Source of the DNA: Streptomyces sp. NBC_01497
GTDB lineage: Bacteria; Actinomycetota; Actinomycetes; Streptomycetales; Streptomycetaceae
Length of the DNA: 64,000 nt
Direction of reading: 5' to 3'
Assembly (NCBI RefSeq): GCF_036250695.1
Contig: NZ_CP109427.1
Location: 2,790,001 to 2,854,000 of the forward strand
Part shown: positions 6,970 through 33,160 of the stretch, piece by piece
Numbering within the stretch: the stretch's first letter is position 1
Layout of the letters: each line of letters begins with the position of its first letter
Notes under the pieces: generated by a model
Database searches by the model: none
What the model was told of the DNA's origin: nothing
The model's input: only the letters and a program-made list of their open reading frames with translations
Program-made: the position numbers and the translations under genes

Positions 6970-6979
6970 GCGCCGGAGC

Positions 6980-8255: not shown

Positions 8256-8558
8256 GGGCCACTCCCTCAAAGTTGACAGACAGCAACAGAGTGGCAACCG
8301 ACGGTTGACCCCCGCAAGCGTGGGCCAACGTTTCACCCGAAGTGATGAGTTGGTGACGGTGGACGCATGATCCGCAAGAGGCCCAGAATGGGCGACGACC
8401 AGCCACCCGCGGCGACGGTGCGCCCCGGTGCCGGCACGGTCCGAACCGGGCCCCCGGCACGGCCGGACCGGCGGCGGGCGAGCGGACCACCGCCGCGCGA
8501 ATACATCACAGGACGGCCGGACAGGACGACGGGCCGGCGCGACGGAAGCGGGCGACGG
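8256..8558. other. Divergent promoter region between GntR regulator and serpin
   Basis: 303 bases. The GntR-proximal 60 bases are relatively AT-rich. They include a 6-1-6 inverted repeat, annotated separately. No gene is supported here. The reading frame that runs in from 8367 has poor protein character until the serpin start. Confidence 0.6.
8295..8307. promoter_or_regulatory. Inverted repeat, possible GntR operator
   Basis: CAACCG, one base (A), CGGTTG: a perfect 6-1-6 palindrome 40 bases upstream of the GntR start. Autoregulation through such a site is usual for this family. It does not match the GT-N-TA-N-AC core often given for HutC proteins. Confidence 0.4.
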
Positions 8559-9761
8559 ATGACGCGGCAACCGGTGGACACGGCGGTGGCCGGGACAGCG
8601 GCCCTCACGGCGCGGTGGGCGGCGCACTTGGACGGCGGGCAGGACGCGGTGTTCTCGGCCGCCGGCGTCTGGCCGCTGCTCGCCCTGCTGGCGGAGACCG
8701 CGGACGGGCCCGCCCGCGCCGAACTGGAGCACGCCGTCGGCGCCCCGGCACCCGAAGCGGCCCGCGCCGCCCGCGCACTGCTCGCCCGACTCCCCGGCGC
8801 CGAGGGGCTCCAGGCGGCGCTGGGGCTGTGGACGGCGCGGTCCCTGCCGCTGCACGACTCCTGGCTCGCGACCCTGCCGGCCGGCAGCCAGGCCTCGCTG
8901 TCCGGGAACGCGGACGCGGACCGGGCGGCACTCGACGCGTGGGCGGCACGGCGGACCGGCGGCCTCATCGACCGGATGCCGGTGGATCTCGGCCCGGGCA
9001 CCCTGCTGGTGCTCGCGAGCGCGCTCTGCCTCTCGACGGAGTGGGAGGAGCCGTTCGTCCAGCACGCGCGGCACACGCCCGGGACGGGTCCCTGGGCGGG
9101 CCGCGACATGCGGTGGCTGATGCGCAACACGGCGGGCACGCATCCGGTCCGGGTGGCGAGGACCCCCGAGGGACCCGTGACCCTGCTTCAGGTGCGCGGC
9201 GGCAACGGCATCGACGTCCACCTCCTGATCGGCCCGCCCGGCATGGGGCCCGGCCAGGTCATCGGCGGCGGTACGGGCGCGCTCGCCGGCCGGTACGAGG
9301 TGATACCCCCCGAACTGCTGCCGTACGGGAACCAGGCCGGCCCCGGCCTGGTCAAGGACGAGATCGATTCGATGAGCCCCGGGCCCGTCCTGTCGGTGAA
9401 CATGCCGGCCTTCCGCCTCAGCGCCGAGCACGACCTGCTGCGCCAGGCCGCCGTCTTCGGTCTGGTCTCGGCGTGCGACGCGTCACGGGGGCATTTCCCC
9501 GGCATCAGTCCGTCCCCGCTCGCGATCCGCTCGGCGGCGCAGTCGGCGATGGCCGACTTCGGCCCGACGGGCTTCACGGCGGCTGCCGTGACGGCGCTGG
9601 GCCTCATGCCCGGCGCCGCGTCGACGGCAAGGACACGGGTCATGAGCATCGTCGCGACGCTGGACCGCCCGTTCGGCTTCGCCGCCGTCCTGCGGGCCAC
9701 GGGTCTGTGTCTGGCCACGGGCTGGGTGGCCACCCCGCCGGCACGTCCCGACAGCGTCTGA
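8559..9761 (+). CDS. Serpin-family protein
   Basis: 400 residues from ATG at 8559 (GGAAG about ten bases upstream), the size of a single serpin domain. Early in the protein is FSAAGVWPLLALLAETADGP, matching the serpin helix-B 'FSP-S...AL-LL--GA-G-T' region. Near residue 334 comes FGPTGFTAAAVTA, the hinge of the reactive-centre loop with the small-residue run needed for loop insertion. DRPFGFAAVLRATG and LATGWVATP then match the conserved C-terminal strands. No signal peptide is apparent, so it may act inside the cell. Serpins trap serine or cysteine proteases; the P1 residue cannot be assigned by eye. It is divergent from the GntR gene. Confidence 0.8.
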   Translation: MTRQPVDTAVAGTAALTARWAAHLDGGQDAVFSAAGVWPLLALLAETADGPARAELEHAVGAPAPEAARAARALLARLPGAEGLQAALGLWTARSLPLHDSWLATLPAGSQASLSGNADADRAALDAWAARRTGGLIDRMPVDLGPGTLLVLASALCLSTEWEEPFVQHARHTPGTGPWAGRDMRWLMRNTAGTHPVRVARTPEGPVTLLQVRGGNGIDVHLLIGPPGMGPGQVIGGGTGALAGRYEVIPPELLPYGNQAGPGLVKDEIDSMSPGPVLSVNMPAFRLSAEHDLLRQAAVFGLVSACDASRGHFPGISPSPLAIRSAAQSAMADFGPTGFTAAAVTALGLMPGAASTARTRVMSIVATLDRPFGFAAVLRATGLCLATGWVATPPARPDSV

Positions 9762-16483: not shown

Positions 16484-17899
16484 TCAGCTCTTGTCGGGCT
16501 TGGCGAGAAGCCATCCCTGGTCGTCGGTGTCGGTGCAGTGGAAGAGCGTCAGCGCGCCGCCCTCCGCGCGGTCGGACCCGTCCGACGCGTTGCCGTAGAC
16601 GTCCAGGCACAGATTGTTGCTGGCGTAGTTGTGGATCCAGTAGAGGCCGCCGCTGTTCGGCCGCTTCTCCAGCCACCAGAGCTGGTTGTCGTTCATCGTC
16701 TGGGTGCAGGCGCTGTCCTGCGGCTTCGCACTGAGCGGTGCGGCGCCCGTCCCCGACAGGTCCATGCAGAAGCCGGTCGACTTGTCGCGGAGCTGGTAGA
16801 GGTCCCGGCCGTCGGGCCCCTTGCCCTTGGCCACCGTGTCGAAATCCCACACCTGGTTGGCCTTGGTATCGGTGTTGCAGGTGTACTGGCCGTAGGTGCT
16901 GCCCGCCGATCCCGTCGCGAAGGCGGGGCCCGCGCACTTCTCGGTCGTGCCGTTCCTGAGCATGACGTCTTTGAAGGGGTGCGGCGCGGGGGACTTCTTG
17001 GCTCCCCCGCCGCCACCCGCGCCCGCACTCGTCGACGGCTGCGGCGGCGGGGTGTTCTGGGCGGTCTCGGTCTGCGACGGCTGGGGCGCCGGGGCCTGGG
17101 ACGGAGGCGGCGGCGTCAGGGACGTGACGGGCGTGTCATTGCGCTCCGTGGCCTGGCTGGCCACCGCGGGCTTGTAGGCGATCCAGATCATCACGAAGGC
17201 CACGGCGAGCGCGATCAGCATCGAGAGCAGCACCCCGAGCCAGCGGGGCAGCAGCCCGGGCTGGACGTACGTGCCCTGCACCGGCAGCGGCTCCGCGCCG
17301 GAACGCTGCACGGAGAGCGTGTACGGGCGGGACTGCTTCTGCCCCGCCCAGATGATCTGCCGCGGCTTCAGCGTGCTCTTGATGAACGCGGCCCGGCCCG
17401 GCGCGATCTGGACGTTGGCGGGGTGGATGTCGTACGCGAGCTGGTCGCCGTTGTCGCTGCCGCCCACGGAGGCGGTGAGTTTGACGTTGCCGAGGTTGTC
17501 GACGGCGAGCCGGGGGCGCCCGCGGAAGCGGCCCTTCACCGTCTGGGGCACGAGTTCGGCCCGTACCTCGGTGAACGGGGTGACGGTCACGTTGCCCTCG
17601 GAGACCGTGGTGGCCTCCGGGTACTCCGACGGGATGATCTGCACGCCGTACGGGTGCGGTCCCGCCGCGGCGTCCGGGGTGCGGGGCGGGGCGAAGGCCA
17701 GCTCCACGGTCCCGGTCGTCCCCGGGTACAGCCGGATGGACTGCGGCTCGACGGTCGTCCACGGGGAGAGGTCACCGACGGGTACGAACCGGTACTCGTC
17801 GACGACGTCACCGGTGTTGCGCACCCGCAGCCGCACGCGGGTCGAACCGCCCGGGTCCACGGTCGTCGAAGGGGGTTCCAGGGAGGTCCAGGGACTCAT
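16484..17899 (-). CDS. Bitopic membrane protein: Ig-like N-domains, TM, ricin-B lectin
   Basis: 471 residues, no signal peptide. The N-terminal 210 residues are beta-rich with two related 'PGGSTRVRLRVRNTG' and 'YPGTTGTVELAFAPP' segments like NEW3/CARDB Ig-type repeats. One transmembrane helix lies at about 217-240 (WLGVLLSMLIALAVAFVMIW), followed by a Pro/Gln/Thr-rich linker. A ricin-type beta-trefoil (about 305-471) carries three QxW motifs: QVW, QLW and QGW. Expected topology is Ig-like domains in the cytoplasm and lectin outside. It lies convergent to the CIS ATPase and divergent from the sheath operon, so it is probably a CIS partner. It might anchor the particle to membrane and wall. Effector roles remain possible. 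Confidence 0.75.
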   Translation of the reverse strand: MSPWTSLEPPSTTVDPGGSTRVRLRVRNTGDVVDEYRFVPVGDLSPWTTVEPQSIRLYPGTTGTVELAFAPPRTPDAAAGPHPYGVQIIPSEYPEATTVSEGNVTVTPFTEVRAELVPQTVKGRFRGRPRLAVDNLGNVKLTASVGGSDNGDQLAYDIHPANVQIAPGRAAFIKSTLKPRQIIWAGQKQSRPYTLSVQRSGAEPLPVQGTYVQPGLLPRWLGVLLSMLIALAVAFVMIWIAYKPAVASQATERNDTPVTSLTPPPPSQAPAPQPSQTETAQNTPPPQPSTSAGAGGGGGAKKSPAPHPFKDVMLRNGTTEKCAGPAFATGSAGSTYGQYTCNTDTKANQVWDFDTVAKGKGPDGRDLYQLRDKSTGFCMDLSGTGAAPLSAKPQDSACTQTMNDNQLWWLEKRPNSGGLYWIHNYASNNLCLDVYGNASDGSDRAEGGALTLFHCTDTDDQGWLLAKPDKS

Positions 17900-18456: not shown

Positions 18457-20052
18457 ATGCCGTCCTACCTGTCGCCGGGTGTCTACGTCGAGGAAGTCGC
18501 CAGCGGCTCCCGCCCGATCGAAGGTGTCGGCACCTCCGTGGCGGCGTTCGTGGGCCTCGCACCCACCGGTCCGCTCAACAAGCCGACCCTGGTGACCAAC
18601 TGGTCCCAGTACGTCGCCGCCTTCGGGGAGTTCACCGACGGCTACTACCTGGCCCATTCCGTCTACGGCTTCTTCAACAACGGCGGCTCGGCCGCGTATG
18701 TCGTGCGGGTCGGCGGCGCGGCCGAAGGGGACGGCCCGAACGCCGGCGCCCCCGCCGCGGTGCCGGGCTCCGCGGCCCCGGCCGCGCTGAACCCGGGCGC
18801 CCCCGCCGCGCTGGGCACGTTCACGGTCCGCGCCCTCGCGGCCGGCAGCGGTGGCGGCGCGCTCAGCGTCGAGGTGAGTGACGCGGAGGGCGAAGGGCCC
18901 GCCGAACGGTTCCGGCTGGTCGTCAAGGACGGCGAGAAGCCCGTCGAGACCTTCGACGTGAGCGCCAAGAAGAGCGGCCGCAACTACGTCGTCACGCAGG
19001 TCAAGGAACGCTCCACGCTGATCAGCGTGCAGGAAGCGGTGCCCGCCGCGCAGCTCGCCCGTCCGGACAACCAGACGGTGGCGCTCGCCCGCCCCACCCA
19101 GGCCCCCGCCGCTCTCCCCGTCGAGAGCGTGAACGCCGGCCACCCCGGCCCGGCCGAGTACCTCGGCGACTCCTCCGACCGCACCGGTTTCGGCGGCCTG
19201 GAAGCGGTCGACGAGATCGCGATGGTCGCCGTCCCCGACCTGATGGCCGCCTACCAGCGCGGCGCGATCGACCTGGAGGCGGTCAAGGCCGTCCAGCTCG
19301 GACTGATCGCGCACTGCGAACTGATGGGCGACCGGGTCGCCGTGATCGACCCGCCGCCCGGGCTCAACGCCCGTGACGTCCGGGTCTGGCGCCAGGACAC
19401 CGCGGGTTACGACTCGAAGTACGCGGCCGTCTACTACCCGTGGATCAAGGTCTTCGACCCGGCCACCGGGCAGGCCCGCATGGTCCCGCCGAGCGGCCAC
19501 GTCTCCGGTATCTGGGCGCGCAACGACTTCGAGCGCGGGGTGCACAAGGCGCCCGCCAACGAGGTCGTGCGCGGCGTCGTCGACCTGGAGAACCAGATCA
19601 CCCGCGGCGAGCAGGACCTGCTCAACCCCATCGGCGTGAACTGCATCCGCGCCTTCCCCGGCCGCGGTATCCGCGTCTGGGGAGCCCGCACCCTCTCCTC
19701 CGACCCGGCCTGGCGCTACATCAACATCCGCCGGTACTTCAACTACCTGGAGGAGTCGATCCTGATCGGCACCCAGTGGGTGGTGTTCGAGCCGAACGAC
19801 GAGGCGCTGTGGGCCCGTATCCGGCGCAACGTATCGGCGTTCCTGGTCAACGAGTGGCGCAACGGCGCCCTGTTCGGCTCGCGTCCCGAGGATGCCTTCT
19901 ACGTCAAGTGCGACGCGGAGAGCAACCCGCCGGAGTCGGTCGACCTCGGCCGGGTCATCTGCGAGATCGGTATCGCGCCCGTCAAGCCCGCCGAGTTCGT
20001 GATCTTCCGGCTGGCCCAGTTCTCCAGTGGCAGCGGCGAGTTGGAGGAGTAG
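18457..20052 (+). CDS. CIS contractile sheath protein (Pvc2/phage tail sheath family)
   Basis: 531 residues, opening PSYLSPGVYVEEVASGSRPIEGVGTS, the standard sheath start. The conserved C-terminal half includes YAAVYYPWIKV, RGVHKAPANE, INPIG-like LLNPIGVNCIRAFPG, WGARTL, and YINIRRYFNYLEESI, which in sheath proteins form the core and handshake elements. The C-terminal GRVICEIGIAPVKPAEFVIFRLAQ is the tail strand that locks subunits. An extra domain (about 90-215), reached through an Ala/Pro/Gly linker (about 88-125), is inserted between the N-terminal part and the core, as in larger CIS sheaths. It is the first gene of the structural operon. Confidence 0.95.
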   Translation: MPSYLSPGVYVEEVASGSRPIEGVGTSVAAFVGLAPTGPLNKPTLVTNWSQYVAAFGEFTDGYYLAHSVYGFFNNGGSAAYVVRVGGAAEGDGPNAGAPAAVPGSAAPAALNPGAPAALGTFTVRALAAGSGGGALSVEVSDAEGEGPAERFRLVVKDGEKPVETFDVSAKKSGRNYVVTQVKERSTLISVQEAVPAAQLARPDNQTVALARPTQAPAALPVESVNAGHPGPAEYLGDSSDRTGFGGLEAVDEIAMVAVPDLMAAYQRGAIDLEAVKAVQLGLIAHCELMGDRVAVIDPPPGLNARDVRVWRQDTAGYDSKYAAVYYPWIKVFDPATGQARMVPPSGHVSGIWARNDFERGVHKAPANEVVRGVVDLENQITRGEQDLLNPIGVNCIRAFPGRGIRVWGARTLSSDPAWRYINIRRYFNYLEESILIGTQWVVFEPNDEALWARIRRNVSAFLVNEWRNGALFGSRPEDAFYVKCDAESNPPESVDLGRVICEIGIAPVKPAEFVIFRLAQFSSGSGELEE

Positions 20053-20134: not shown

Positions 20135-20578
20135 ATGAGTCTTCAGCCCGGTGATTCCCTCACCTCACACAATTTCGGCCTCCAGATCGACGGCGTCATG
20201 GTCGAGTACCTCCAGGAGGTCAGCGGCCTGAGCCTCGAACAGGACGTCATCGAGTACCAGCAGGTCTCCGCCCAGGGCGTGCCCGTGACGAAGAAGCTGC
20301 CGGGCGTGAAGAAGGCCGGCACGTGCACCGTCGTGCGCGGCATGACCCAGTCCGCGGCGTTCAACCAGTGGATCAACGAGTCGATCGCCGGCCAGATGGC
20401 GACGGCCCGCAAGAACGCCACGATCATGCACATGGACTACACGAACGCCCCGGTCAAGCGCTACAACATGCGCAACGCCTGGTGCAGCAAGGTCGAGGCC
20501 AGCACGGTCAAGGCCGGTGAGGCGTCGGCGCTCACCGAGACCGTCACCATCACCTTCGAAGAACTGGTCATCGAGTAA
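20135..20578 (+). CDS. CIS inner tube protein (gp19/Pvc1 family)
   Basis: 147 residues, the usual size for T4 gp19-like tube proteins. The segments DSLTSHNFGLQIDGVMVEYLQEVSGLS, and VTIKFEELV-like VTITFEELVIE at the end, form the conserved beta-barrel frame. The middle KRYNMRNAWCSKVEASTVKAGEASALTET is typical. It polymerises into the tube surrounded by the sheath. The sheath-to-tube spacer is 82 bases; the stop overlaps the next ATG by one base. Confidence 0.95.
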   Translation: MSLQPGDSLTSHNFGLQIDGVMVEYLQEVSGLSLEQDVIEYQQVSAQGVPVTKKLPGVKKAGTCTVVRGMTQSAAFNQWINESIAGQMATARKNATIMHMDYTNAPVKRYNMRNAWCSKVEASTVKAGEASALTETVTITFEELVIE

Positions 20579-21069
20579 TGCGCCGTACGGCTGCCCGCTC
20601 CTCGGCGGCGCCCGCACCCGCGGGCGCCGAGCCCGAGGAGTCCGAGCCCACTCCCCCGGCGAGCGCCCCGGTCGCCGAGCAGGTGCCCGAACGGCAGTCG
20701 CTGCGAACGGAGTTCGACTTCGAACTGCCGCGCGGATACGTCGACGACGCGGGCACGGTGCACCGCACGGGCACCATGCGCCTGGCCACCGCGCGGGACG
20801 AACTGGTCCCGCTGCGCGACCTGCGCGTGCAGGAGAACCCGGCCTACCTGTCGGTCGTGCTGCTCGGCCGGGTCATCACCCGGCTGGGCACGCTCGGGCA
20901 GGTGCACGACGGGGTCGTGGAGAACATGTTCGCCTCCGACCTCGCCTTCCTGCAGGACTTCTACCGGCAGGTCAACGCCGAAGGACACACCAGGGCCGGG
21001 GTGACCTGCCCGCACTGCGAGCAGCCCTTCGAGGTGGAGCTCGGCGGGAGCCGCCTGGGGGAATCGTGA
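20578..21069 (+). CDS. Putative tail assembly protein with zinc-knuckle C-terminus
   Basis: 163 residues. A disordered Pro/Ala/Glu N-terminus (1-40) precedes LRTEFDFELPRGYVDDAGTVHRTGTMRLATARDELVPL, a beta-rich segment. A helical part follows: VVLLGRVITRLG and VVENMFASDLAFLQDFYRQVN. The end is TCPHCEQPFEVEL, with a CxxC motif that could bind zinc or iron together with nearby histidines. Position directly after the tube gene matches that of small tail-assembly or chaperone proteins in phages and eCIS loci. The start overlaps the tube stop by one base and the stop overlaps the next GTG by four. Confidence 0.65.
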   Translation: MRRTAARSSAAPAPAGAEPEESEPTPPASAPVAEQVPERQSLRTEFDFELPRGYVDDAGTVHRTGTMRLATARDELVPLRDLRVQENPAYLSVVLLGRVITRLGTLGQVHDGVVENMFASDLAFLQDFYRQVNAEGHTRAGVTCPHCEQPFEVELGGSRLGES

Positions 21070-21224
21070 CGTACGCGACCGACCGTGTCCACGAAGAGAT
21101 CGCGTACATCGCTTACCACTTCCACTGGAGCCTGGAGGACATCCTGGACCTCGAACACCGCGACCGGCGGCGTTACGCCCAGGAGATCGCCTCTCTCGTC
21201 AGCCGCGCGGCGACGGAGGGGTGA
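21066..21224 (+). CDS. DUF6760-like small protein of CIS operon
   Basis: 52 residues from GTG at 21066, overlapping the previous stop by four bases. Sequence: VHEEIAYIAYHFHWSLEDIL, DLEHRDRRRYAQEI, ASLVSRA. It is a compact helical protein in which the W-S-x-E-D/E-I-L-x-L-x-H-x-x-R-R-x-Y pattern is the same as that of short proteins downstream of tail-assembly genes in phages and eCIS loci. With the preceding gene it resembles the paired tail-assembly chaperones that bind the tape measure. Length and position support this; function is inferred. Confidence 0.65.
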   Translation: MTYATDRVHEEIAYIAYHFHWSLEDILDLEHRDRRRYAQEIASLVSRAATEG

Positions 21225-24200
21225 TGGGGTTCCTCGACAGGCTGCGCGGACGGCCGGACGCGGGCCGCGGCGGACCGGACGGTGCGCCGCCTCCCGCGGC
21301 GGAGGCACCCGCGGACCGTCCGCAGCCCGCGCACCCCACGGGCCCGGGAGCGGCGGGCTGGTCGAGCCTGCCGCCGCTGCGAAGTTCCCTCACCCGGGGA
21401 ACCGGAGCCGTCACCGACGCCGGGTTCGGCGTGTCGCTCACCACCTGGCAGAACCCCTCCTTCGTCGGGGCCCTCTCGCACGCCGTCCTCGACGGTGCTC
21501 CCGGCGGCCTGGTCAAGGGCCCGCTCCCGGTCCTGGCGGCCTCGTCGCCCGGGCCGGAACTCGGCATGCCCTCGCTGACCCTGCCGGTCGCGGGAGCAGC
21601 CGCCGTCCCGGAACCCGGCCCCGCTGCCGCGCCGTTGGCCCGCGCGGTCCCGGACACCGCCCCTCAGGGAGCCCCGCCGCTCGCGGGCCGGACCGCGGGG
21701 CCCCGGGTCTCGCCGGTGCCCCCGCGTGCCGCCCGGCCCGTCACCCTGACGACGTCGCCCCCGGTGCAGCGACGCGCCCTGCCGACGGTGACGGCGTCCA
21801 CGCGTGCCGGCGGCTCGTCACGTGCGTCCTCCCCGCCCGCCCCGATGGCCGCACGCTCCGAGCCGGGGCAGGCCGTGAACACGGACCCGACGCCGGACGC
21901 CCCGTCGGTCTCCGCCGCATCCGCGCCCGCACCCTCCGCGCCGCCGCGCCAGGACATGTCCCCGCCGCCGCCCACCGCGCCGACCGCGATCCAGCGGCGC
22001 CCCGCCGTCGGACCCGTACGGCCCGGACTCGGCACACCGGCGGGCGGACCGGCTTCGGCAGGACCGGCATCGGCAGGACCGACAACTGCCGGACCGGTAT
22101 CTGCCGGGCAGCCGTCGAGCGGACAGGCGAAGACCGGTCAGGCACCGAGCGGATCGCCGTCGGCCCCTTCGGGCTCGCGCGGTTCGACGGCGAGCGGATC
22201 ACCGTCGGCCCCTTCGGCGTCGGCCGGTTCGGCATCGGGCGGGCAAGCCGCAGGCGGCCCGGGCGCGCGTCGAGCGCGCCCGCTGCTCGGCGCCCCGCTG
22301 TCCGCTCCGCCCCCGGCCACGGGGCCCGCCAGGCCCCAGGGGCCCGGGACCTCGGCCGGGCGCCGCGCCACGTCGCACCCGGCGTCTCCCGGCTCCGACC
22401 CCGCCCGTGGCGCGGCCGGGCAGGCGTCCCCGCCCTCCCCCACTTCCCTCGCTCCCCCGCGTTCCACCGCCGCGCTGGCCGGCGACGGCCCCGCGGCCGC
22501 CCCGGCCCCGGTCCAGCGTGCGCCGATGCGGCCGGAGCCGTCGCCGCGCCCCGTGACCCCGGGCAACCGCGCCCCCTCGGCCTCGGCGCTCCCTTCCTCG
22601 GGACGCCCCCTGTCAGAACCGGCGCGGGACGGCGCGGCGTCCGGCACCGCGAGATCCCTGCCGACAGCGCCCCTCACCCCCGCGGCACCGCGAGCGGAGG
22701 CGGCTACCGACCCGCGCTCGACCGGCGTCCTGCCCCCGGCGACGACTTCCGGCGGGGCCGCGCGGCCGGCCGCCCCGGCGGCCGGAGACAGCGGCGCCCG
22801 CGCCATGCCGTCCGCGCCGGTGCGGTTCGACGGCAGGGACGATCCGGCCGCCACCGCCGCGCACACGGCACCCGCGTCGCGTACGACCGTGCTGCCCGTG
22901 GCAGCCGTCGTGCCCGTACAGCGCGTCCGGGCGTCCGCCGGGACCGGGCCCGCCGGGGCTCCCCGCTCCCCCGCGATGCCCGTCGTCCCCGTGCGGCGCG
23001 CCGCCGCGTCATCCGGGCGGCCCACAGCTCCCGGTACGGCATCCCCCGTACGCGCCCCGGCCGGCAACGGACCTGCCCCGGCGGCCGGTTCACGGCTCCC
23101 GGCCTCGGTGCCCGGCACACCGGAGGGCGCCACCGCGGCAGGTACCGAGGACGCCACCGCCACGAGGGAACGGCGTCCTGACTCCGGTGGCGCGTCCAAC
23201 CACCGCTCTCTCGCTCTGACTTCGGCCCGTCCGTTGGTGTCCGCCCTGCCGCCGGTGCCGGCGCCCGCCCCCGGCACCACTGCCCTGCAGCGGCGCCCCG
23301 CGACCACGGCGGTACCGTTGCGCCGCCCCGCGGCCCCTGTCCTCGCGGCGCCTTCCGGCGTCGGCGGTCCGCCACGCCCTGCCGCGCCAGGCCGCCCGGG
23401 CGCCGGCGGCCCCGCCCCTGCGGCGCGCGGGGGAGCGGGGGCCGGGACGGCCGCTCCCGTCCCGGCGGCAGCCGCCGTCCGGCCCACCGCGATCCCGGCC
23501 GGCACCATCCCGCCCAACGCCGGCCCGCCCAACGCCGTCCGGCCCACCGGCCCGACGGGAGCCGGGACAGCGTCGGCGCCCGCACCCGGGGGCCGCTCGG
23601 GCTCTGCCGGCCCGACGGTGCAGCGCCGTGCGGCGCCGCGATCCGGCTCCGCCCCCACCGTGAGCGGACCCGCGCTGCCGCGAACCACCGCTCCCGTATC
23701 TCCTGCCGGGCCGGTGGGCCGTGGCGGACCGCCCCGGCCGGTCGCCCTCGGGCTCCCCGGCGGTCCCGCCGCCCCGCCGCCGCGCGGTGGCCGGCCCGCC
23801 GCGAGCGGTCAGGGCGGCGCGGCGGGCATCGTGCAGCGTCTCGCGGCGTCCCCGGCTTCCGGGCTCGCACCGGCCCCGGCCGGGCCCAGGCCGCTCGGGC
23901 CCGCCGCCTCTGCGGCGTCGGCCACGGCACTCACGCCTCCACGCCCACCGGCCGGCGCCTCGCACACGCCCGTTCCGTACACCCCCGTTCCGTCCACCCG
24001 GGTCGGGACGACGTCCCGTCCGGCGCTGCCCCTGTCCCCGCCCGTCTCCCCCGCTCCCGGGTTGCCGGGCCGGACCGTCACCGCCGCACCCGCACCCGCC
24101 GGGGGTTCCGTACCCGGTGGGCGCGTGGCGCTGCCCGTACAGCGCGCGGCGGCCGGTCCCGGGTCCTTCGGCCTGCCGTCCGGCCGTCCCGGGCCCACCG

Positions 24201-24727
24201 CCCGGACCGTCCCGGCCGGGGCTTCCCCGGGGCCGACGGGTTCGCCCGTACGCCTCCCGGCGTACGCCCCCGCGCCGGCGATGCCGGTGCAGCGGAGCAC
24301 GGCGCCCGCCTCCGCTCCGGCGCGCGGACCGGCGCTCGCCAAGGTCCTCGCGGCTCCCGGCCCGTCCGCCGGGCCGGGGCCCCGGCCCGCCCGCCCGGCG
24401 GCCGTCGCACCCGTCCCGCAGATCCAGCGGCGCGCCGCCGCGCCGGTCCGCGCCCCGGCGCCGAGCACGGCCGGCAGGTCCCCCGGGACCTCCCGCTCCA
24501 CCGCGGAGTTCAGCGCCAACGGACTGACGGAACGTCAACTGGATGAACTCGCTTCGCGGTTGAGCAGCCGAATGGCGCGACTTCTGGGGTTCGAGGCGAA
24601 GAAACTCTCAGAGCGCCAACTCGACGAACTCGTCCACCGGTTGTTCGGCCCGCTGACCCGGCTGCTGAGAACCGAGTTGCGCCTCGACCGGGAGCGCGTC
24701 GGGAAGCTGCGTGACGCGCGCCGCTGA
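21224..24727 (+). CDS. Large Pro/Ala-rich protein with [VIL]QR repeats, CIS tape-measure or loader candidate
   Basis: 1,167 residues from ATG at 21224 (GGAGGGG just upstream; GTG at 21221 also possible). Only the two ends look folded. The N-terminus MGFLDRLRGR plus about 75-105 (WQNPSFVGALSHAVLDGAPGGL) is the first. The last 65 residues are a helical repeat, QLDELASRLSSRMARLLG then QLDELVHRLFGPLTRLL. The rest is Pro/Ala/Gly/Ser/Thr. Ten [V/I/L]QR motifs punctuate it at about 181, 256, 430, 565, 688, 799, 870, 972, 1022 and 1067, with VRR/LRR variants near 590 and 697. Position between assembly proteins and the baseplate genes is that of a tape measure. It might instead thread cargo. Unlike phage tape measures it is not helical. 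Confidence 0.6.
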   Translation: MGFLDRLRGRPDAGRGGPDGAPPPAAEAPADRPQPAHPTGPGAAGWSSLPPLRSSLTRGTGAVTDAGFGVSLTTWQNPSFVGALSHAVLDGAPGGLVKGPLPVLAASSPGPELGMPSLTLPVAGAAAVPEPGPAAAPLARAVPDTAPQGAPPLAGRTAGPRVSPVPPRAARPVTLTTSPPVQRRALPTVTASTRAGGSSRASSPPAPMAARSEPGQAVNTDPTPDAPSVSAASAPAPSAPPRQDMSPPPPTAPTAIQRRPAVGPVRPGLGTPAGGPASAGPASAGPTTAGPVSAGQPSSGQAKTGQAPSGSPSAPSGSRGSTASGSPSAPSASAGSASGGQAAGGPGARRARPLLGAPLSAPPPATGPARPQGPGTSAGRRATSHPASPGSDPARGAAGQASPPSPTSLAPPRSTAALAGDGPAAAPAPVQRAPMRPEPSPRPVTPGNRAPSASALPSSGRPLSEPARDGAASGTARSLPTAPLTPAAPRAEAATDPRSTGVLPPATTSGGAARPAAPAAGDSGARAMPSAPVRFDGRDDPAATAAHTAPASRTTVLPVAAVVPVQRVRASAGTGPAGAPRSPAMPVVPVRRAAASSGRPTAPGTASPVRAPAGNGPAPAAGSRLPASVPGTPEGATAAGTEDATATRERRPDSGGASNHRSLALTSARPLVSALPPVPAPAPGTTALQRRPATTAVPLRRPAAPVLAAPSGVGGPPRPAAPGRPGAGGPAPAARGGAGAGTAAPVPAAAAVRPTAIPAGTIPPNAGPPNAVRPTGPTGAGTASAPAPGGRSGSAGPTVQRRAAPRSGSAPTVSGPALPRTTAPVSPAGPVGRGGPPRPVALGLPGGPAAPPPRGGRPAASGQGGAAGIVQRLAASPASGLAPAPAGPRPLGPAASAASATALTPPRPPAGASHTPVPYTPVPSTRVGTTSRPALPLSPPVSPAPGLPGRTVTAAPAPAGGSVPGGRVALPVQRAAAGPGSFGLPSGRPGPTARTVPAGASPGPTGSPVRLPAYAPAPAMPVQRSTAPASAPARGPALAKVLAAPGPSAGPGPRPARPAAVAPVPQIQRRAAAPVRAPAPSTAGRSPGTSRSTAEFSANGLTERQLDELASRLSSRMARLLGFEAKKLSERQLDELVHRLFGPLTRLLRTELRLDRERVGKLRDARR

Positions 24728-24807: not shown

Positions 24808-25245
24808 ATGCCCAGCGATCTCGACCCGGGATCCTCGATCTTCTTCACCCTGACCATCGACGGCGAGGACCTGGGGTACTTCAACGGCTGCGAGGGCCTG
24901 GCTTCCGAGGTCGAGATGGAGCACTACCAGGAGGGCGGCAACAACGGGTTCGTCTGGCAGCTGCCCACCCGCGTCACGTTCTCCACGATCCGGCTGACCC
25001 GTCCCCTGACGGCCGGCACGGCGAACGTGGCCGCCTGGATCTCCTCCGTCACCACCGGGGTCTCCCGGCCCACCGCCGAGATCGCGGCGCTGCGTGCCGA
25101 CGGCTCGGTCGTCGTCCGCTGGGGCCTGATGGACGTGGTCCCCGTGCGCTGGCAGGGCCCGACGCTCGATCCGGCCAACCCGTCGGTCGCCACGGAGGTC
25201 CTGGAGATCGCGCACCACGGATTCACGGACGTAGGGGGGGAGTAG
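24808..25245 (+). CDS. Tube-initiator protein (gp19-like, Pvc5-type)
   Basis: 145 residues, a second gp19-family member but clearly distinct from the tube protein: SSIFFTLTIDGEDLGYFNGCEGLASEVEMEHYQEGGNNGFVWQLP and VTFSTIRLTRPLTAG. In PVC and Afp the second and third tube-like proteins form the ring joining tube to spike and baseplate. The conserved end is VLEIAHHGFTDV. A gap of two bases separates it from the LysM gene. Confidence 0.88.
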   Translation: MPSDLDPGSSIFFTLTIDGEDLGYFNGCEGLASEVEMEHYQEGGNNGFVWQLPTRVTFSTIRLTRPLTAGTANVAAWISSVTTGVSRPTAEIAALRADGSVVVRWGLMDVVPVRWQGPTLDPANPSVATEVLEIAHHGFTDVGGE

Positions 25246-25247
25246 CG

Positions 25248-26003
25248 ATGGCAGGCAAGGAAGGCGCCTTCGACAAGGCGGGCAACAAGTTCTCCGAGGT
25301 CATCGGGAGCCTGGTGCACGCCACGCTCGCGATCCACGAACCGCCGCTCGGGCACAGCACCACGCCGGGCGCGCTGATCAAGTCGTTCGGCTTCGAGTTC
25401 AACCCCTCCCAGCTCTCCCTGACCCGGCGCGCCCAGTGGCAGTCCACCCCGACGGCCATGGTGCGCGACGGCGCGCTGCCCGAGTTCATGGGGCCCGAGC
25501 CGCTCGAACTGTCCGTGGCGGTCTTCCTCGACCGCTCCGACGACCCGGACAGCAATGACGTGATGAAGATGGTCGAGTCGCTGTTCTCCTGCTGCGAGGT
25601 GACCTCCATGAGCATCGCGGCGAAGCAGCCGTCCACGCCCTGGGTGATCTTCCAGTGGGGTTCGTTCCGGACGGCCAGGTTCACCGCGTACGTCGAGTCG
25701 GTGGACACCACGTACACCCTCTTCGGCACTTCGGGGATGCCGATCCGCGCCACCTGCCAGCTGCGGCTGCACGAGATCCCGGGCAAGACCCTGGGACAGA
25801 ACCCCACCTCCGGCGCGCTGACCGCGCGCCGTGTGCACCGGGTCGTCGCGGGCGATTCGCTGCAGTCGCTCGCCTGGCGGGAGTACGGGGACGCCACCGT
25901 GTGGCGGGCGATCGCCGAGACCAACGAGATCGACGACCCGGCGCGGCTCAGTCCCGGCACCGAGCTCATCCTGCCCGCGGTCGAGGAGGTCACCGCCCCA
26001 TGA
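25248..26003 (+). CDS. LysM adaptor protein of CIS baseplate (gp53/Pvc7-like)
   Basis: 251 residues. The N-terminal 195 residues (GALIKSFGFEFNPSQLSLTRRAQWQ, FLDRSDDPDSNDVMKMVESLFSCCEV, TPWVIFQWGSF) follow the CIS/T6SS adaptor pattern. The C-terminal LysM-like domain (about 198-248) contains HRVVAGDSLQSLAWREYGDATVWRAIAETN and a closing 'LSPGTELILPA'. In phage and CIS baseplates this protein sits between tube and spike. The LysM may here contact the baseplate rather than peptidoglycan. The stop overlaps the next ATG by four bases. Confidence 0.85.
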   Translation: MAGKEGAFDKAGNKFSEVIGSLVHATLAIHEPPLGHSTTPGALIKSFGFEFNPSQLSLTRRAQWQSTPTAMVRDGALPEFMGPEPLELSVAVFLDRSDDPDSNDVMKMVESLFSCCEVTSMSIAAKQPSTPWVIFQWGSFRTARFTAYVESVDTTYTLFGTSGMPIRATCQLRLHEIPGKTLGQNPTSGALTARRVHRVVAGDSLQSLAWREYGDATVWRAIAETNEIDDPARLSPGTELILPAVEEVTAP

Positions 26004-27862: not shown

Positions 27863-28308
27863 TGCCCGAGCAATTCGTCGGCTCCGGCTGGTCCTTCCCG
27901 CTGCGCATCGGTCCCACCGGAGGCATCGCGCTGGTCAGCGGGGAGCGGGAGGTCGAGGAGGCCATGCACCTGGTGCTGGCCACCGCACCGGGCGAGCGGC
28001 CCATGCGCCCGGAGTTCGGCTGCGCCATCCACGACATGGTCTTCGCGCCCGTCAACGAGACGACCGTGGGCCGCATCCAGCACGAGGTCTTCACCAGCCT
28101 GGACCGCTGGGAGCCGCGCATCGAGGTGCACGAGGTGGAGGTGACCCCCGGCGACGACACCCAGGGGGTGCTGTTCATCGACGTGCGCTACGCGATCCGC
28201 GGCACCAACAACCCGCGCAGCCTGGTCTTCCCGTTCTACGTCATCCCCTCACACGACGATCCCGAGCCGCCGTCCGACGACGGCCCGGCCACCGAAAGCG
28301 ACCGCTGA
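27862..28308 (+). CDS. Baseplate wedge protein, gp25 family (Pvc9)
   Basis: 148 residues. SGWSFPLRIGPTGGIALVSGEREVEEAMHLVLATAPGERPMRPEFGC is the full gp25 signature, including the ExxR-like EF-G(C) motif. It ends in IDVRYAIRGTNNPRSLVFPFY. gp25 proteins nucleate the sheath in the baseplate. The start overlaps the spike stop by one base, and the stop overlaps the baseplate-J start by one base. Confidence 0.93.
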   Translation: MPEQFVGSGWSFPLRIGPTGGIALVSGEREVEEAMHLVLATAPGERPMRPEFGCAIHDMVFAPVNETTVGRIQHEVFTSLDRWEPRIEVHEVEVTPGDDTQGVLFIDVRYAIRGTNNPRSLVFPFYVIPSHDDPEPPSDDGPATESDR

Positions 28309-30266
28309 TGGCACTGCCCTCCCCGAATCTCGACGACCGGCGCTTCCAGCAGTTCGTCGACGACGCCAAGCGCTACATCCAGCGGCGCGCCCCGGAGTGG
28401 ACCGACCACAACGTGTCCGACCCCGGCATCACCCTCGTGGAGACCGTCGCCCACCTGGCCGACCAGATCGTCTACCGGCTCAACCGGGTCCCCGAGAAGA
28501 ACCACCTGGCCTTCCTCGACCTCGTCGGGATCACCCTCTTCCCGCCGTCCGCCGCGCGCACCGACGTGACGTTCTGGCTGTCGGCCCCGCAGGAGGACCC
28601 CGTCGTGGTCCCCCTCGGCACGGAGACCGCGACCGTGCGCGCGGAGGGCGAGGAAGCCGTCGTCTTCTGCACCGAACGGGAACTGTCCATCATCTCCAGT
28701 GAGTTGCGGCACCTCGCGGTGCAGAACGGCGGCCAGGCCGTACTCGACAGGAGCACCGACCTCGCCGAGGCGCGGGACGTCCTGTGCTTCGCCGAGGCCC
28801 CCGGCGTCGGTGACTGCATGCTCCTCGGACTCAGCGCCGCCGTCCCGCACTGCGCCGTCGCGCTGCGGCTCGACAGCCGGGTCGACGGCGTCGGCGTGGA
28901 CCCCCGGCAGCCCCCGCTGGTGTGGGAGGCGTGGACCGCCGACGGCTGGGCGGCGTGCGAGATCGAGGAGGACGGCACCGGCGGTCTGAACCGCCCGGGC
29001 GACGTGGTGCTGCACGTACCCGCCGGGCACATCCTCTCCCGCAGCGGCCGGCACGAGGCGGGCTGGCTGCGCTGCCGGGTGACCGAACCCGCGCCGAACC
29101 AGCCCTTCTACACCACCTCTCCCACCGTGCGCTCTGCCGAGGCCTTCACCATGGGCGGAACGGTCCCCGTCGTGCACGCCGAGACGGTCTACGACGAGGC
29201 CCTGGGCGAGTCCAACGGGCTGCCGGGGCAGCGGCTCCGGCTCACCCACGCCCCCGTCGTCGGCGACATCCCGCCGGTGCACCTCCAGGTCGCCGACCAC
29301 GACGGCTGGCAGGACTGGTCGGTCGTCCAGCACTTCGCGGCCTCCCGGACGGACGACCGCCACCTCACCCTCGACGCCGCGACCGGTGAGATCGCCTTCG
29401 GCCCCGCCGTACGGGAACGGGACGGCACGCTGCGCCAGTACGGGGCCGTACCGGCCAAGGGCGCCGTCATCCGGGCCCGCCGCTACCGCACCGGCGGCGG
29501 CCGCGCCGGCAACGTCGCCCGCGGCGCCGTCCGCACCCTGCGCGACTCCGTTCCCTACGTCGCCGAGGTCGTCAACCGCGAAGCCGCCCACGGAGGTGTG
29601 GACGGCGAGACGGTCACGGAGGCGAAGGCCCGCGCGCCCCTCACCCTGCGCGCCCAGGACCGCGCCGTCACCCTGCGCGACTACGCCGAACTCGCCCGGC
29701 ACGCGGCCCCCGAGACCGCCCGCATCACCTGCCTCGAAGGCGAGGAGGAGAAGCACGGCGCGTACGCCGTGCGCGTCCTCGTCGTGCCCCGCGCCGTCCC
29801 CGACCCGGGCGGCCGGCTGCGCTTCGAACAGCTCGTACCCGCCGACGACCTGCTGCGGCGGATCAGCGGCTACCTCGACGAGCGGCGCCTGATCGGCACC
29901 CGCCTCGCGGTGGGCCCGCCGTACTACCAGGGCGTCACCGTCGTCACCACCCTGCACGCCTTCCGGGGCGTCGACGCCGACCGGGTCAGGCAGGACGCGT
30001 ACGACGCGCTCTACCGCCACCTGGACCCGCTCACCGGCGGAGCCGACGGCACCGGCTGGCCCTTCGGCCGGCCCGTCCAGTCGGGCGAGATCTTCGCGGT
30101 GCTCCAGCGCGTGCCCGGGGTCGAGCTGGTGGACGAGGTGCTGCTCTACCCGGCCGACCCGCTGACCGGCAAGCGCGGGGAGCGGACCGAGCGCATCGAC
30201 CTCGAAGCGCCGTCCCTGGTCTTCTCCTACGACCACCGCGTACGGGTGAGCGGAGGGTCCTCGTGA
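28308..30266 (+). CDS. Baseplate assembly protein J family (Pvc11)
   Basis: 652 residues. The N-terminus reads LDDRRFQQFVDDAKRYIQRRAPEWTDHNVSDPGITLVETVAHLADQIVYRLNRVPEK, the usual gp6/baseplate-J start. The middle part contains DWSVVQHFAASRTDDRHLTLDAATGEIAFGP, and the C-terminus includes GDV-like ALYRHLDPLTGGADGTGWPFGRPVQSGEIFAVLQRVPGVELVDEV. These proteins form the baseplate ring around the spike. Start and stop overlap neighbours (ATG with gp25; GTGA with the tail-I gene). Confidence 0.93.
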   Translation: MALPSPNLDDRRFQQFVDDAKRYIQRRAPEWTDHNVSDPGITLVETVAHLADQIVYRLNRVPEKNHLAFLDLVGITLFPPSAARTDVTFWLSAPQEDPVVVPLGTETATVRAEGEEAVVFCTERELSIISSELRHLAVQNGGQAVLDRSTDLAEARDVLCFAEAPGVGDCMLLGLSAAVPHCAVALRLDSRVDGVGVDPRQPPLVWEAWTADGWAACEIEEDGTGGLNRPGDVVLHVPAGHILSRSGRHEAGWLRCRVTEPAPNQPFYTTSPTVRSAEAFTMGGTVPVVHAETVYDEALGESNGLPGQRLRLTHAPVVGDIPPVHLQVADHDGWQDWSVVQHFAASRTDDRHLTLDAATGEIAFGPAVRERDGTLRQYGAVPAKGAVIRARRYRTGGGRAGNVARGAVRTLRDSVPYVAEVVNREAAHGGVDGETVTEAKARAPLTLRAQDRAVTLRDYAELARHAAPETARITCLEGEEEKHGAYAVRVLVVPRAVPDPGGRLRFEQLVPADDLLRRISGYLDERRLIGTRLAVGPPYYQGVTVVTTLHAFRGVDADRVRQDAYDALYRHLDPLTGGADGTGWPFGRPVQSGEIFAVLQRVPGVELVDEVLLYPADPLTGKRGERTERIDLEAPSLVFSYDHRVRVSGGSS

Positions 30267-30835
30267 GAGGTTCGATCGACGGCCTGGGCTCCTCCGTCCC
30301 GCTCGGCACCATGCTGCCCGCCGCCTTCGCCGACGACGACGTGCTGCAGCGCTTCGTCGCCGGACTGGACGAGGTGCTGGCCCCCTTCCTCAACGTCCTC
30401 GACTGCATGGACGCGTATTTCCTCCCCTCCCTGGCCCCCGCCGACTTCGCCCGCTGGCTCGGCTGGTGGGTCGGCGCCGAGACCGACGGCATCCAGGACG
30501 ACACCGCCGAGGGGGAGGCACGGCTGCGCGCGGCGGTCGCCGCCGCCGCCCGGCTGCACCGCATCCGCGGCACGCGTGCGGGCCTCTCCGAGGCGGTACG
30601 GCTCGCCTTCGGCGTCGAGCCCGAGATCACCGAGAGCGGCGGTGCCGCCTGGAACGCCCGGCCCCTCGGCCCGGTTCCCGGCGAACACCGCCCCCGCCTG
30701 CACGTGGTCCTCCGCCTGCCCGCACCGACGGACGCGGACGAATACCGGCTCGACAACCTGGTGGCAGCCGCCCGCCCCGCTCACATGCCCTACACGGTCC
30801 AGGTGACCGCCGTGGAAAGGACCCACCAGACATGA
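30263..30835 (+). CDS. Tail protein I-like baseplate protein (Pvc12-like)
   Basis: 190 residues from GTG at 30263. The region LPAAFADDDVLQRFVAGLDEVLAPFLNVLDCMDAYFLPSLAPADFARWLGWWVGAETD, then RAAVAAAARLHRIRGTRAGLSEAVRLAFGVEPEI, is typical of phage tail protein I / eCIS baseplate subunits. It likely interacts with baseplate J. The ATGA overlap with the next gene indicates coupling. Confidence 0.88.
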   Translation: MRGSIDGLGSSVPLGTMLPAAFADDDVLQRFVAGLDEVLAPFLNVLDCMDAYFLPSLAPADFARWLGWWVGAETDGIQDDTAEGEARLRAAVAAAARLHRIRGTRAGLSEAVRLAFGVEPEITESGGAAWNARPLGPVPGEHRPRLHVVLRLPAPTDADEYRLDNLVAAARPAHMPYTVQVTAVERTHQT

Positions 30836-32370
30836 GTCAGGCATCCGGCGACCCGAGGGGAGAGCAGCGGATGGTGGTCTGCGACCAGTGCGGGACGCAC
30901 CAGGACCCGGCGCAGGCGTTCTGCGACAGCTGCAACGCGGTGCTGCGCTGGAGCCCCGGCACGCCCGCGCCCGCGCCCTCCGCCCGGCCGGCGCCCGAAC
31001 GGACCCCCGTCGCGCAGGGCGCACCGGGCGCACCGGGTCAACTGCCCCCCGAACAGGGGCCGGCCGGCCACCTGCCGCCCGAGCAGCCGCTCCACGGCCG
31101 GACCGCGGCGTCCGCACCGGCGGCGCCTTCGGGCCCGGCCGACCCGTGGAACGCGTCGCCGGCCGGCGGCGGATACGGGGCACCCCCGGCCGGCAGCGGG
31201 TACGGGTACCCGCCACGCGCGGACGGTTTCGGACCCCCGCCGGGCGCGGGCGGTTTCGGACCCCCGCCGGGCGCCGCGCCGGCCGCCTCCGCCCCGTGGG
31301 CGGGTCCCTCCGCCCACGGCACGCACAGCGGTGGCCACGCCATGAACGACGACACGCTGGAGACCGCCACGCCCGCCGTGTGGCCGGGCGGCGCGGGCGC
31401 GGCACTGCCGGCGCAGGAACCGCCCGCCACCGCTGCCGCGGCCGGTGGCCGCCCGCCCGTACAGGACCCGGGCATCGACACCGAACGGGCCAGGGCGCTG
31501 CTCGTACCGCTGGCCGATCCGCGGGCACCGCAGGACCTGCCGCCGAGCGTGGCCCCCGTCCTGCCGGGGCGGCCCGAGCCCGCACGGCCCCAGGTCCGCA
31601 CCGTGGGAGAGCAGCCCTTCCAGGGAGGCATCGCCTGTCCCTGGTGCGCCACCCCCAACCCGCCCGAACGCCACTTCTGCTCCCGGTGCGCCATGTCCAT
31701 GGGCGCGGGACCGGAGAACGCGGCACGGCGCTCCTGGTGGCGGCGGATGGTCGACTACCGCAACCGGGAGGAGCCCTGGGCAGGTGACCGCCCGCGCCTG
31801 CGCCGCCAACTCGGCCGCATCCTGCGGTGGGTGGCGGGGGCCGCGGCGATCGCCCTGGTCGTGACGGGCCTCTTCCACGCCGGCGAGGGCATCGACGCGG
31901 TACGCGACCACTTCTCGAAACGGGTCGCCGTCGCGCCCGACTCGTACAAGGCGTCGCACTCCTACGAGCACCAAGGCCCCGGCCTGGCGTTCGACAAGGT
32001 CAGCAACACCTGGTGGGGGCCCGGCTACTCGGGGTCCGGACAGGGGCAATGGCTGGAGGCCCACTTCCAGGAGCCGGTGACGCTGCTCGACGTCGGCATC
32101 ACCCCCGGCGAGTCCACCCACGCCGACACGCTCTCCAAGTCGGCGCTCCCGCACCGCGTCGAGGCCACCATCACCACCGACGACGGCAAGGTCAGCACCA
32201 AGGAACTCCTCCTCGACCCGTCCAGCGGCTTCCAGTCGCGCGACTTCCGCTTCCACGACGTCACGTCGGTGCGCTTCACCCTGGAGACCGCGTACAACAC
32301 CGACGGGAAGAAGCAAGTCGCCATCGCCGAGATCGAGTTCTTCGGCGCCTCCCAGGACGGCGCTTCCTGA
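30832..32370 (+). CDS. Bitopic membrane protein with zinc ribbons and discoidin-like domain; CisA-like candidate
   Basis: 512 residues, last gene of the CIS operon. It has a zinc ribbon at 17-34 (CDQC, CDSC), a long Pro/Gly/Ala linker, and a second ribbon near 269-286 (CPWC, CSRC). A basic stretch and one transmembrane helix (about 328-349, VAGAAAIALVVTGLFHAG) follow. The C-terminal domain (about 362-508) has a discoidin/galactose-binding-like pattern: YEHQGPGLAFDKVSNTWWGPGYSGSGQGQWLEAHF, and RFTLETAYNTDGKKQVAIAEIEFFG. Topology predicts ribbons inside, discoidin domain outside. In S. coelicolor a membrane protein called CisA at this locus links CIS to the membrane for cell death. This gene is a plausible equivalent by position, but identity needs alignment. 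Confidence 0.7.
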   Translation: MSQASGDPRGEQRMVVCDQCGTHQDPAQAFCDSCNAVLRWSPGTPAPAPSARPAPERTPVAQGAPGAPGQLPPEQGPAGHLPPEQPLHGRTAASAPAAPSGPADPWNASPAGGGYGAPPAGSGYGYPPRADGFGPPPGAGGFGPPPGAAPAASAPWAGPSAHGTHSGGHAMNDDTLETATPAVWPGGAGAALPAQEPPATAAAAGGRPPVQDPGIDTERARALLVPLADPRAPQDLPPSVAPVLPGRPEPARPQVRTVGEQPFQGGIACPWCATPNPPERHFCSRCAMSMGAGPENAARRSWWRRMVDYRNREEPWAGDRPRLRRQLGRILRWVAGAAAIALVVTGLFHAGEGIDAVRDHFSKRVAVAPDSYKASHSYEHQGPGLAFDKVSNTWWGPGYSGSGQGQWLEAHFQEPVTLLDVGITPGESTHADTLSKSALPHRVEATITTDDGKVSTKELLLDPSSGFQSRDFRFHDVTSVRFTLETAYNTDGKKQVAIAEIEFFGASQDGAS

Positions 32371-32455
32371 GGAGCCGCCCCAGGAACGCCCCTCGCGCCG
32401 CGGCGGCCCGCCCCCGCGGCGCGAGGCGGCACGCGTACCGAGAACAGCACGGTGT

Positions 32456-32536
32456 GCGGCCTCCGCCCGGCGGGCACGGCGCCGCCGGACCGCCGGCGCG
32501 GCCTCCGCCCGGCGGGCACGGCGCCGCCGGACCGCC
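32456..32536. repeat. Direct repeat, two 39-bp units with period 42
   Basis: Units at 32456-32494 and 32498-32536 are identical. Each contains CCTCCGCCCGGCGGGCACGG and is itself rich in short inverted repeats, so the RNA could fold strongly. It lies about 85 bases after the CIS operon's last stop. Confidence 0.8.
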
Positions 32537-33130
32537 CCGGCAACACGACGACAACGGCCCGGCTCACCAGCACCTCCGCGCGGGCGGCCACCCCCACGCC
32601 CTCGGCCGGCGGGGCCGCCCCGCCTCCCCCGTCTCCCGCATCCACCCGACGGATTCTCCCGGGTCCACCCGACGGATCCACCCGATGCGGTGGCCCGGGT
32701 CGGGTGTCATGCTCACCGTCGCCGCCGCCATGGTCGTCTTCCTCGTCACCCGGGGCCGTACCGAGCGCTCCTGTGACCGGCCTCCGGCCCGTCCTGCGAC
32801 GCACGGATCACCGGCCCGACACCCCCACCACGGCCGCGATCGCCAGGCTCGCCCCCCTCCGGGCAGAGGCCACGGATTCCGCGACACACGGATTCCGCGA
32901 CCCCTGGGCCGCCACGCTCGCGCGTCCTCCGCTTCCCCCTCCGTGCGGAAAGCCGCTCGGACCCGCCGTCGCCCGGCGCAGTCCGGCACCCGCACCGGCC
33001 GTCGCCCCTCCTCCGACCGTCGTCCCCTCCCCCGACCGTCGGCGCCACAGCACGCCGTCACACTCCCCCTCCCCGGCCCCGTCTCCGTCCTCATCCCAGG
33101 ACAGAACTCTCAGGACAGAACAGCACGGGC

Positions 33131-33160
33131 TTGACGCGCATTAGCTATAGGTACTAGCTT
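33131..33160 (+). promoter_or_regulatory. Promoter of hydrolase/TetR operon with overlapping inverted repeat
   Basis: TTGACG (33131-33136), 18-base spacer, TAGCTT (33155-33160). Inside it AGCTA (33143-33147) and TAGCT (33155-33159) form an inverted repeat with a seven-base centre. A second pair, AGGTA (33149) and TACCT (33176), flanks the likely start of transcription. This is a typical place for a TetR operator. Confidence 0.5.

Follow-up and report, generated by a model that had tools for sequence, protein, structure and literature searches.

The window analyzed here is a 64,000-nucleotide (nt) stretch of Streptomyces sp. NBC_01497 (assembly GCF_036250695.1, contig NZ_CP109427.1, forward strand, positions 2,790,001-2,854,000), and it carries the locus of a contractile injection system (CIS). 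Downstream of the sheath and inner tube genes lie three frames that we label G (20578-21069), T (21066-21224) and LONG (21224-24727). LONG is a real, conserved and unusual CIS component, and an earlier note on this DNA had asked whether it is a tape measure or a cargo thread. We propose, with a probability of about 0.68, that it is the tape measure of actinobacterial CIS, a disordered protein anchored in the hub and served by G and by a G-T fusion. The genes and signals concerned are as follows (aa, amino acids).

18457-20052, +, sheath, Cis2-like (Pfam Phage_sheath_1, 3.8e-30)
20135-20578, +, inner tube protein, Cis1a-like (Pfam Phage_T4_gp19, 6.4e-31)
20578-21069, +, G, proposed tail assembly chaperone, 163 aa (phrog_508 matches among aligned members)
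21057-21063, +, slippery heptamer G GGG GAA, presumed -1 ribosomal frameshift site (invariant in 79/79; same motif in phage chaperone frameshifts)
21066-21112, +, RNA stem-loop 3' of the slippery site (-19 kcal/mol, z -2.82; consensus hairpin in 16 sequences)
21066-21224, +, T, DUF6760 domain, -1 frame, 52 aa counted from a GTG, presumably the C-terminal portion of a G-T fusion (PF20546, 5.5e-11; weak similarity to P2 gpE)
21224-24727, +, LONG, proposed disordered tape measure, 1167 aa (conserved open frame with [VIL]QR motifs)
21224-21553, +, conserved N-terminal region of LONG (first 110 residues match 74 of 78 G-bearing loci by tblastn)
24602-24724, +, conserved C-terminal anchor of LONG, DELxxRLxxPxxRLLRxELRxxRERxG (alignment of 26 sequences including the window)
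24808-25245, +, second tube protein, Cis1b/Cis5-like tube initiator (Pfam gp19, 6.2e-30; CIS5_fam, 2.1e-18, under its curated cut-off)
25248-26003, +, Cis7-like tube initiator with LysM (CIS_tube, 5.3e-19; PDB 9gtp chain P, 3.5e-106)

A search with the window sheath gave 582 matches, of which the best 80 were kept, hence the loci nearest that sheath. Together with the window these make 81 sequences, two of which lack G. The remaining 79 (78 loci and the window) come from Streptomyces, Actinomadura, Micromonospora, Saccharopolyspora and others, and in all of them G is followed by T and then by a LONG frame. Plasmids and IMG/VR supplied a second set of 22 loci, some of which (for example L094 and L095) are near-duplicates. 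Locus L110 apparently duplicates L032, with the same LONG length. Published facts about CIS and phages are drawn from portions of PMC12237407, PMC10066040, PMC13277306, PMC11126660, PMC10286715, PMC5506516, PMC10885494, PMC5009743, PMC8894136, PMC8894135, PMC12210884, PMC11566945 and PMC10020575, and statements about these papers hold for those portions.

LONG and its VQR motifs

The LONG frame is opened by an in-frame GTG at 21221 and encodes 1167 aa from the ATG at 21224. Its composition (A 21%, P 19%, G 13%, S 9%, R 9%) agrees with the earlier description of a Pro/Ala/Gly/Ser-rich product. Such Pro and Gly contents speak against a predominantly alpha-helical protein, and from composition the middle is probably intrinsically disordered. 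Complete frames with the C-terminal signature number 53 among the 79 sequences (558-1486 aa, median 1096), the window included, while 19 others are cut by a contig end and 7 stop early or mismatch. One of the 53, L066, is doubtful, with unread bases and an N-terminus that does not match. The two ends of the protein are conserved; the middle is Pro/Ala/Gly-rich and hard to align, mean column identity being 25% among 12 LONG sequences and one filler. The duplicated QLDEL unit noticed earlier near the end of the protein is found at residues 1105 and 1132. That helix is restricted to the ends, as had also been suggested, holds in part when judged by composition: residues 1085-1167 are poor in Pro and Gly, but so are shorter stretches at 533-572 and 641-669, and 51 of the 53 sequences have at least one such stretch of 25 residues within the middle.

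A motif scan recovers all ten of the [VIL]QR motifs that had been listed for the window LONG.

21764-21772, +, VQR, residue 181
21989-21997, +, IQR, residue 256
22511-22519, +, VQR, residue 430
22916-22924, +, VQR, residue 565
23285-23293, +, LQR, residue 688
23618-23626, +, VQR, residue 799
23831-23839, +, VQR, residue 870
24137-24145, +, VQR, residue 972
24287-24295, +, VQR, residue 1022
24422-24430, +, IQR, residue 1067

Composition predicts 0.28 motifs in this protein, and the maximum in 200 shuffles was 3. A first count over 46 LONG sequences gave 560 motifs against 15.7 expected (36-fold), as compared to 253 against 138.3 (1.8-fold) in 629 other open reading frames (ORFs) of the same loci, which are at least 150 aa long, were chosen by codon-position G+C, and may include some that are not genes. 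Of all tripeptides with 60 or more occurrences in the middles of the later set of 53, VQR shows the strongest enrichment (530 against 9.3), and its favored surroundings are P-P-V-Q-R-A/S-A/T. Within the motif, V, Q and R are encoded with nearly the same codon preferences as in the rest of the same genes, which rules out a DNA-level repeat as the source of VQR and indicates that selection acts on the protein. The gaps between motifs are variable (average 78 aa, coefficient of variation 0.66, 583 gaps) and motif number correlates with protein length at r = 0.42, so there is no strict period, and an arrangement of one VQR per tube ring was rejected. In locus L108, the LONG frame (2859-6995) contains imperfect repeats around PPVQRA(T/A)ARPSG, as though VQR units had been tandemly duplicated.

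These motifs also bear on the possibility that LONG holds cargo, as a scaffold or effector thread that fills the lumen and carries or tethers effectors via VQR without setting length. The link between VQR and DUF4157 proteins that the earlier note had drawn is borne out: around the DUF4157 core of these Streptomyces CIS cargo proteins the motif occurs 42 times against 6.4 expected (31 loci, of which 16 were parsed by pattern, one of them without a motif). Some copies read VQRSxVHD shortly before the zinc motif, and others follow the domain and are PVQRA-like. A single DUF4157 protein was found in the genome of the window (G000:C1:3023776, L083, among the 15 loci missed by the pattern); it lies about 209 kb from LONG and bears LQRSAGNAAV as well as VQRAPAG twice. 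Streptomyces is also reported to have the tape-measure-related effectors Tme and Sle1, and the lumens of wild-type CISSc particles are mostly filled. However, LONG has no domain match (Pfam finds no DUF4157 core, PF13699, in it) and occupies a constant position next to the two chaperone frames in the loci examined. In addition, when Sco4256-4258 are missing, particles are otherwise normal while their lumens are mostly empty, which suggests that the visible filling is made of those effectors. We consider a pure cargo thread unlikely. As for VQR being a processing signal, another role suggested earlier, no evidence for it was found.

Tme, which is partly disordered, and Sle1, a coiled-coil protein, are long and CIS-associated like LONG; unlike LONG, the former has DUF4157 and nuclease domains and the latter predicted transmembrane helices. 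Sle1 has 62 close homologues among 754 Streptomyces species, and loss of Sle1/Sle2 leaves the structure of the particles apparently intact. A potential interaction has been described between Sle2, a Streptomyces DUF4157 protein, and the tube initiator SlpT2. LONG and DUF4157 proteins might thus share a docking partner at the tube, and it is our guess that their VQR motifs have this partner in common.

G, T and the presumed frameshift site

The assignment of G, on which the tape measure reading leans, comes from profiles. All 28 aligned members match phrog_508, and 3 of the 28 also match PF10109 weakly, so that G looks like a tail assembly chaperone. Its fold match is weaker than its profile match: Foldseek of the G model against the PDB gave none at E <= 0.001, and the top TM-score of the list was 0.38, for 3klu at rank 14, presumably a member of the chaperone family. 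Aligning G to the single P2 E sequence with hhalign gave no signal, and a tblastn search for phage records with G returned none. A CPxC motif is invariant in the C-terminal part of G, just before the slippery site, where zinc-ribbon profiles match weakly; no such motif is known from phage chaperones. As compared to the chaperones of P2 (E/E+E'), Mu (gp41/FS-gp41) and HK97 (PF10109, PF06528, phrog_508), G is alike by profile and may be alike by fold, T is weakly alike, and the slippery site is common to both. The differences are the setting in an injection system, the CPxC motif, and the DUF6760 family to which T belongs.

The DNA at the end of G reads CGCCTGGGGGAATCGTGACGTAC. Within it, GGGGGAA is invariant in all 79 sequences, and the surrounding 23-base block varies at two positions only, in one and in two sequences. 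In the rest of these genes, the codons GGG and GAA are in the minority (0.24 and 0.14), and the 1.49 Mb of these loci contain 78 copies of CTGGGGGAAT. The PRFect authors report that all of a thousand "fivetwo" SEA-PHAGES motifs read GGGGGAA, with the phase G GGG GAA, and the same heptamer was proposed as the frameshift site of corynephage phi16. The hairpin that follows has z values of -2.8 to -4.0 in four of the five stretches folded; the fifth, from L108, does not cover the site. The stem shows little covariation (of 27 consensus pairs, 5 change on both sides, and 2 of these lie in the hairpin), and the covariation term is unfavorable (+0.49). The consensus fold also pairs the slippery stretch with downstream bases, and the hairpin starts only 2 nt past the heptamer.

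Outside the main set, T is present in 20 of the 22 further loci, and 16 of those have the G-run. Among these 16, no ATG, GTG or TTG precedes the T core in 11, such codons are internal only in 3, and they overlap in 2; in contrast, a start codon is present in each of the 4 T loci that lack the G-run. The strongest hint that ribosomes get to T by frameshifting comes from this contrast. A slippery heptamer, a frame at -1, a stem-loop, and missing starts elsewhere are thus the signal elements legible in these sequences, and a -1 frameshift presumably joins G to T.

Alternatively, T could have an overlapping start of its own, used through translational coupling, with the G-run as its ribosome binding site. 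A GTG or ATG does overlap the G stop codon in the 79 actinobacterial sequences, there is an overlapping ATG in Haloferax L101 and Rhizobium L105, and GGGGGA is Shine-Dalgarno-like. In 8 of the 11 loci without ATG, GTG or TTG, an in-frame CTG, a rare start codon, is available. But the start-codon contrast opposes coupling, even though some of its loci are near-duplicates, the heptamer and its reading phase agree with phage chaperone frameshift sites, and only 3 nt separate the G-run from the GTG. Coupling is therefore improbable, and we retain the G-T fusion. Literature searches, whose coverage left out most subscription papers and preprints, gave no paper joining Streptomyces CIS with a frameshift and none on DUF6760, no title on Streptomyces CIS for tail assembly chaperones, and no title on CIS for disordered contractile tape measure proteins.

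A proposed tape measure with its chaperones

The proposed mechanism would work as follows. The C-terminal helices of LONG would anchor the protein in the hub formed by the spike and tube initiators, while its Pro/Ala/Gly-rich, probably disordered middle would lie in the lumen of the growing tube and set the length. G and the rarer -1 frameshift fusion G-T would bind LONG and keep it competent for assembly, as gpG and gpGT do for the phage lambda ruler, and the VQR motifs may dock G or the tube wall. In phage P2, genes FI and FII are followed by E and E+E' (produced by a -1 frameshift) and then by the tape measure T. With FII as the tube gene, sheath-tube-G-T-LONG repeats the P2 order up to its tape measure. 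LONG resembles lambda gpH and P2 gpT in gene order, in the upstream chaperone pair with its -1 frameshift signal, and, in one species, in a length that may be proportional to the tube. It differs in being Pro/Ala/Gly-rich and probably disordered, in its repeated VQR, and in matching no tape measure profile.

Particles of the S. coelicolor CIS are all of one length, 268 nm with 60 tube layers, and the tape measure gene was reported absent, as it was in two further papers on Streptomyces CIS; a negative-stain study found a mean length of 295 nm. The Cis7 of genome G270 is identical over 228 residues to chain P of PDB 9gtp, which we take to be the S. coelicolor particle, although the entry listing does not state so. 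Locus L071 (S. tricolor) was dropped as a stand-in for S. coelicolor, as 9gtp chain P matches the window clade and G270 exactly. The LONG of G270, a protein of 1378 aa with 22 VQR, is presumably the orthologue found in S. coelicolor. Spread over 60 rings, its length makes 23 aa per ring, or 0.17-0.18 nm per aa in this one species. Helical phage rulers span about 0.15 nm per aa, and the phi16 value is 0.156. The ratio is consistent with a ruler rather than proof of one. Together with the chaperone pair and its phage heptamer and the P2-like order, this plausible ratio in one orthologue strengthens the tape measure half of the earlier question, and the cargo half keeps a small share.

Several points weigh against LONG being a tape measure. 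The ratio may be a coincidence, since a Pro- and Gly-rich chain should not form an alpha-helix and a single species is involved. The lengths of LONG spread 2.7-fold over the 558-1486 aa range (542 aa in L120). No Pfam, NCBIfam or PHROGs profile matches it, tape measure profiles included; tape measures are diverse in sequence, and profile similarity is not strictly defining. The C-terminal signature is absent from 7 of the 60 LONG frames that stop inside a contig (L008, L011, L037, L046, L048, L057 and L081, the last containing unread bases). Sheath relatives are present in 192 of 392 Streptomyces genomes, and among the 20 regions taken from these for LONG, two have an apparently interrupted frame that lacks the signature (L109 in G142, 233 aa; L113 in G379, 890 aa). 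All nine loci may reflect errors or true losses, and in L109 and L113 the error would be one of sequencing through GC-rich repeats. The CISSc electron cryomicroscopy model places nine proteins, none of which is LONG, and Sco4251, which mass spectrometry detected in one or more of three purifications, may be G or LONG. AlgoCIS has 22 layers, and its paper does not use the term "tape measure". Archaeal CIS reported to lack cis6 and cis14 are described as heterogeneous in sheath length, although the mean is 220 ± 16 nm, which fits either view.

Gene order outside actinobacteria adds to these objections, since in most other phyla seen no long gene directly follows the chaperone pair. In Nostoc L098, Paenibacillus L100, and IMG/VR L094 and L095, a tube-like gene separates T from the long one, and a sheath-like ORF (recognized by eye) follows T in IMG/VR L087 and L089-L093. 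Haloferax L101 has G and T without a G-run, T having its own ATG, and no long ORF comes before its DUF4157 gene. G and T thus do not always announce an adjacent ruler. In favor of LONG as a ruler, the ORF after the T-like frame in the IMG/VR viral contig L096 is a recognized tape measure (3.8e-12); L096 and L097 both carry a DUF6760-like T and are a possible phage source of the module. In Deinococcus L102, a small frame after the G-like gene (7462-7647) is not DUF6760-like and holds IDLDEVTRRVYQLMLDDLRLDL, resembling the C-terminal anchor of LONG.

LONG is alike to the Cis6/Alg6 plug (AlgoCIS, Anabaena tCIS) in its probable C-terminal helix and its place among tube initiator genes. Alg6 is small, and LONG has about 1100 residues more. 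Alg6, which is required for AlgoCIS assembly, is a trimer whose C-terminal helix sits in the spike cavity, and Anabaena Cis6 has a flexible loop that extends into the lumen. Proteins with a similar helix lie further along in Nostoc, Paenibacillus, Rhizobium, Paraburkholderia, and IMG/VR L094 and L095. They come before the LysM gene where this is seen, and in Nostoc, Paenibacillus, Rhizobium and L094 this is the cis6 place. The two C-terminal profiles align weakly (hhalign probability 30, E 5e-4), and neither the cis6-place proteins nor the LONG anchor has a convincing PDB match; homology to the plug is a lead. That LONG is nothing but an enlarged plug nucleating assembly, its tail being passive and length being set otherwise, is unlikely, because it leaves the neighboring chaperone pair unexplained. 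A plug whose tail also measures would be compatible with the tape measure reading.

A tape measure role has likewise been proposed for Afp14/Pvc14 of AFP/PVC, a likeness by description and not by sequence; a homologue is reported lacking in Streptomyces. In the AFP cluster, the Afp14 gene is said to stand elsewhere than LONG does in its locus.

If LONG measures the tube, a candidate gene and its chaperones can be named for S. coelicolor particles of uniform length reported to have no tape measure. The reading accounts for the conserved DUF6760/GGGGGAA junction and predicts an overlooked G-T protein. A disordered ruler would also make the helical picture of rulers less general, and a docking code made of VQR would have consequences for cargo loading. 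A wider scheme is tentative and on balance doubtful: across several phyla, CIS might have kept the phage frameshifting chaperone to load a plug-anchored thread, which in actinobacteria became a disordered ruler. Its VQR would then be a docking code for tube or chaperone common to DUF4157 cargo, placing length setting and cargo loading on one code.

Neighboring genes

Further along the operon lie baseplate genes.

27937-28209, +, gp25-like baseplate domain, Cis9-like (GPW_gp25, 6.4e-25)
28308-30266, +, baseplate J-like, Cis11-like (PF04865, 3.3e-11)
30263-30835, +, Tail_P2_I baseplate protein, Cis12-like (PF09684, 6e-12)

The frames at 30888-31787 and 31827-33134 gave no match in a Pfam search, which bears on the earlier view that the locus has no other gene suited to be a tape measure. 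On the other side, a ricin-type lectin gene (16484-17899, -) faces the CIS operon and resembles the Sco4257/4258 effectors of S. coelicolor. A gene for a serpin family protein (8367-9761, +; PF00079, 2.5e-21) also lies near the CIS locus, serpins being uncommon in bacteria.

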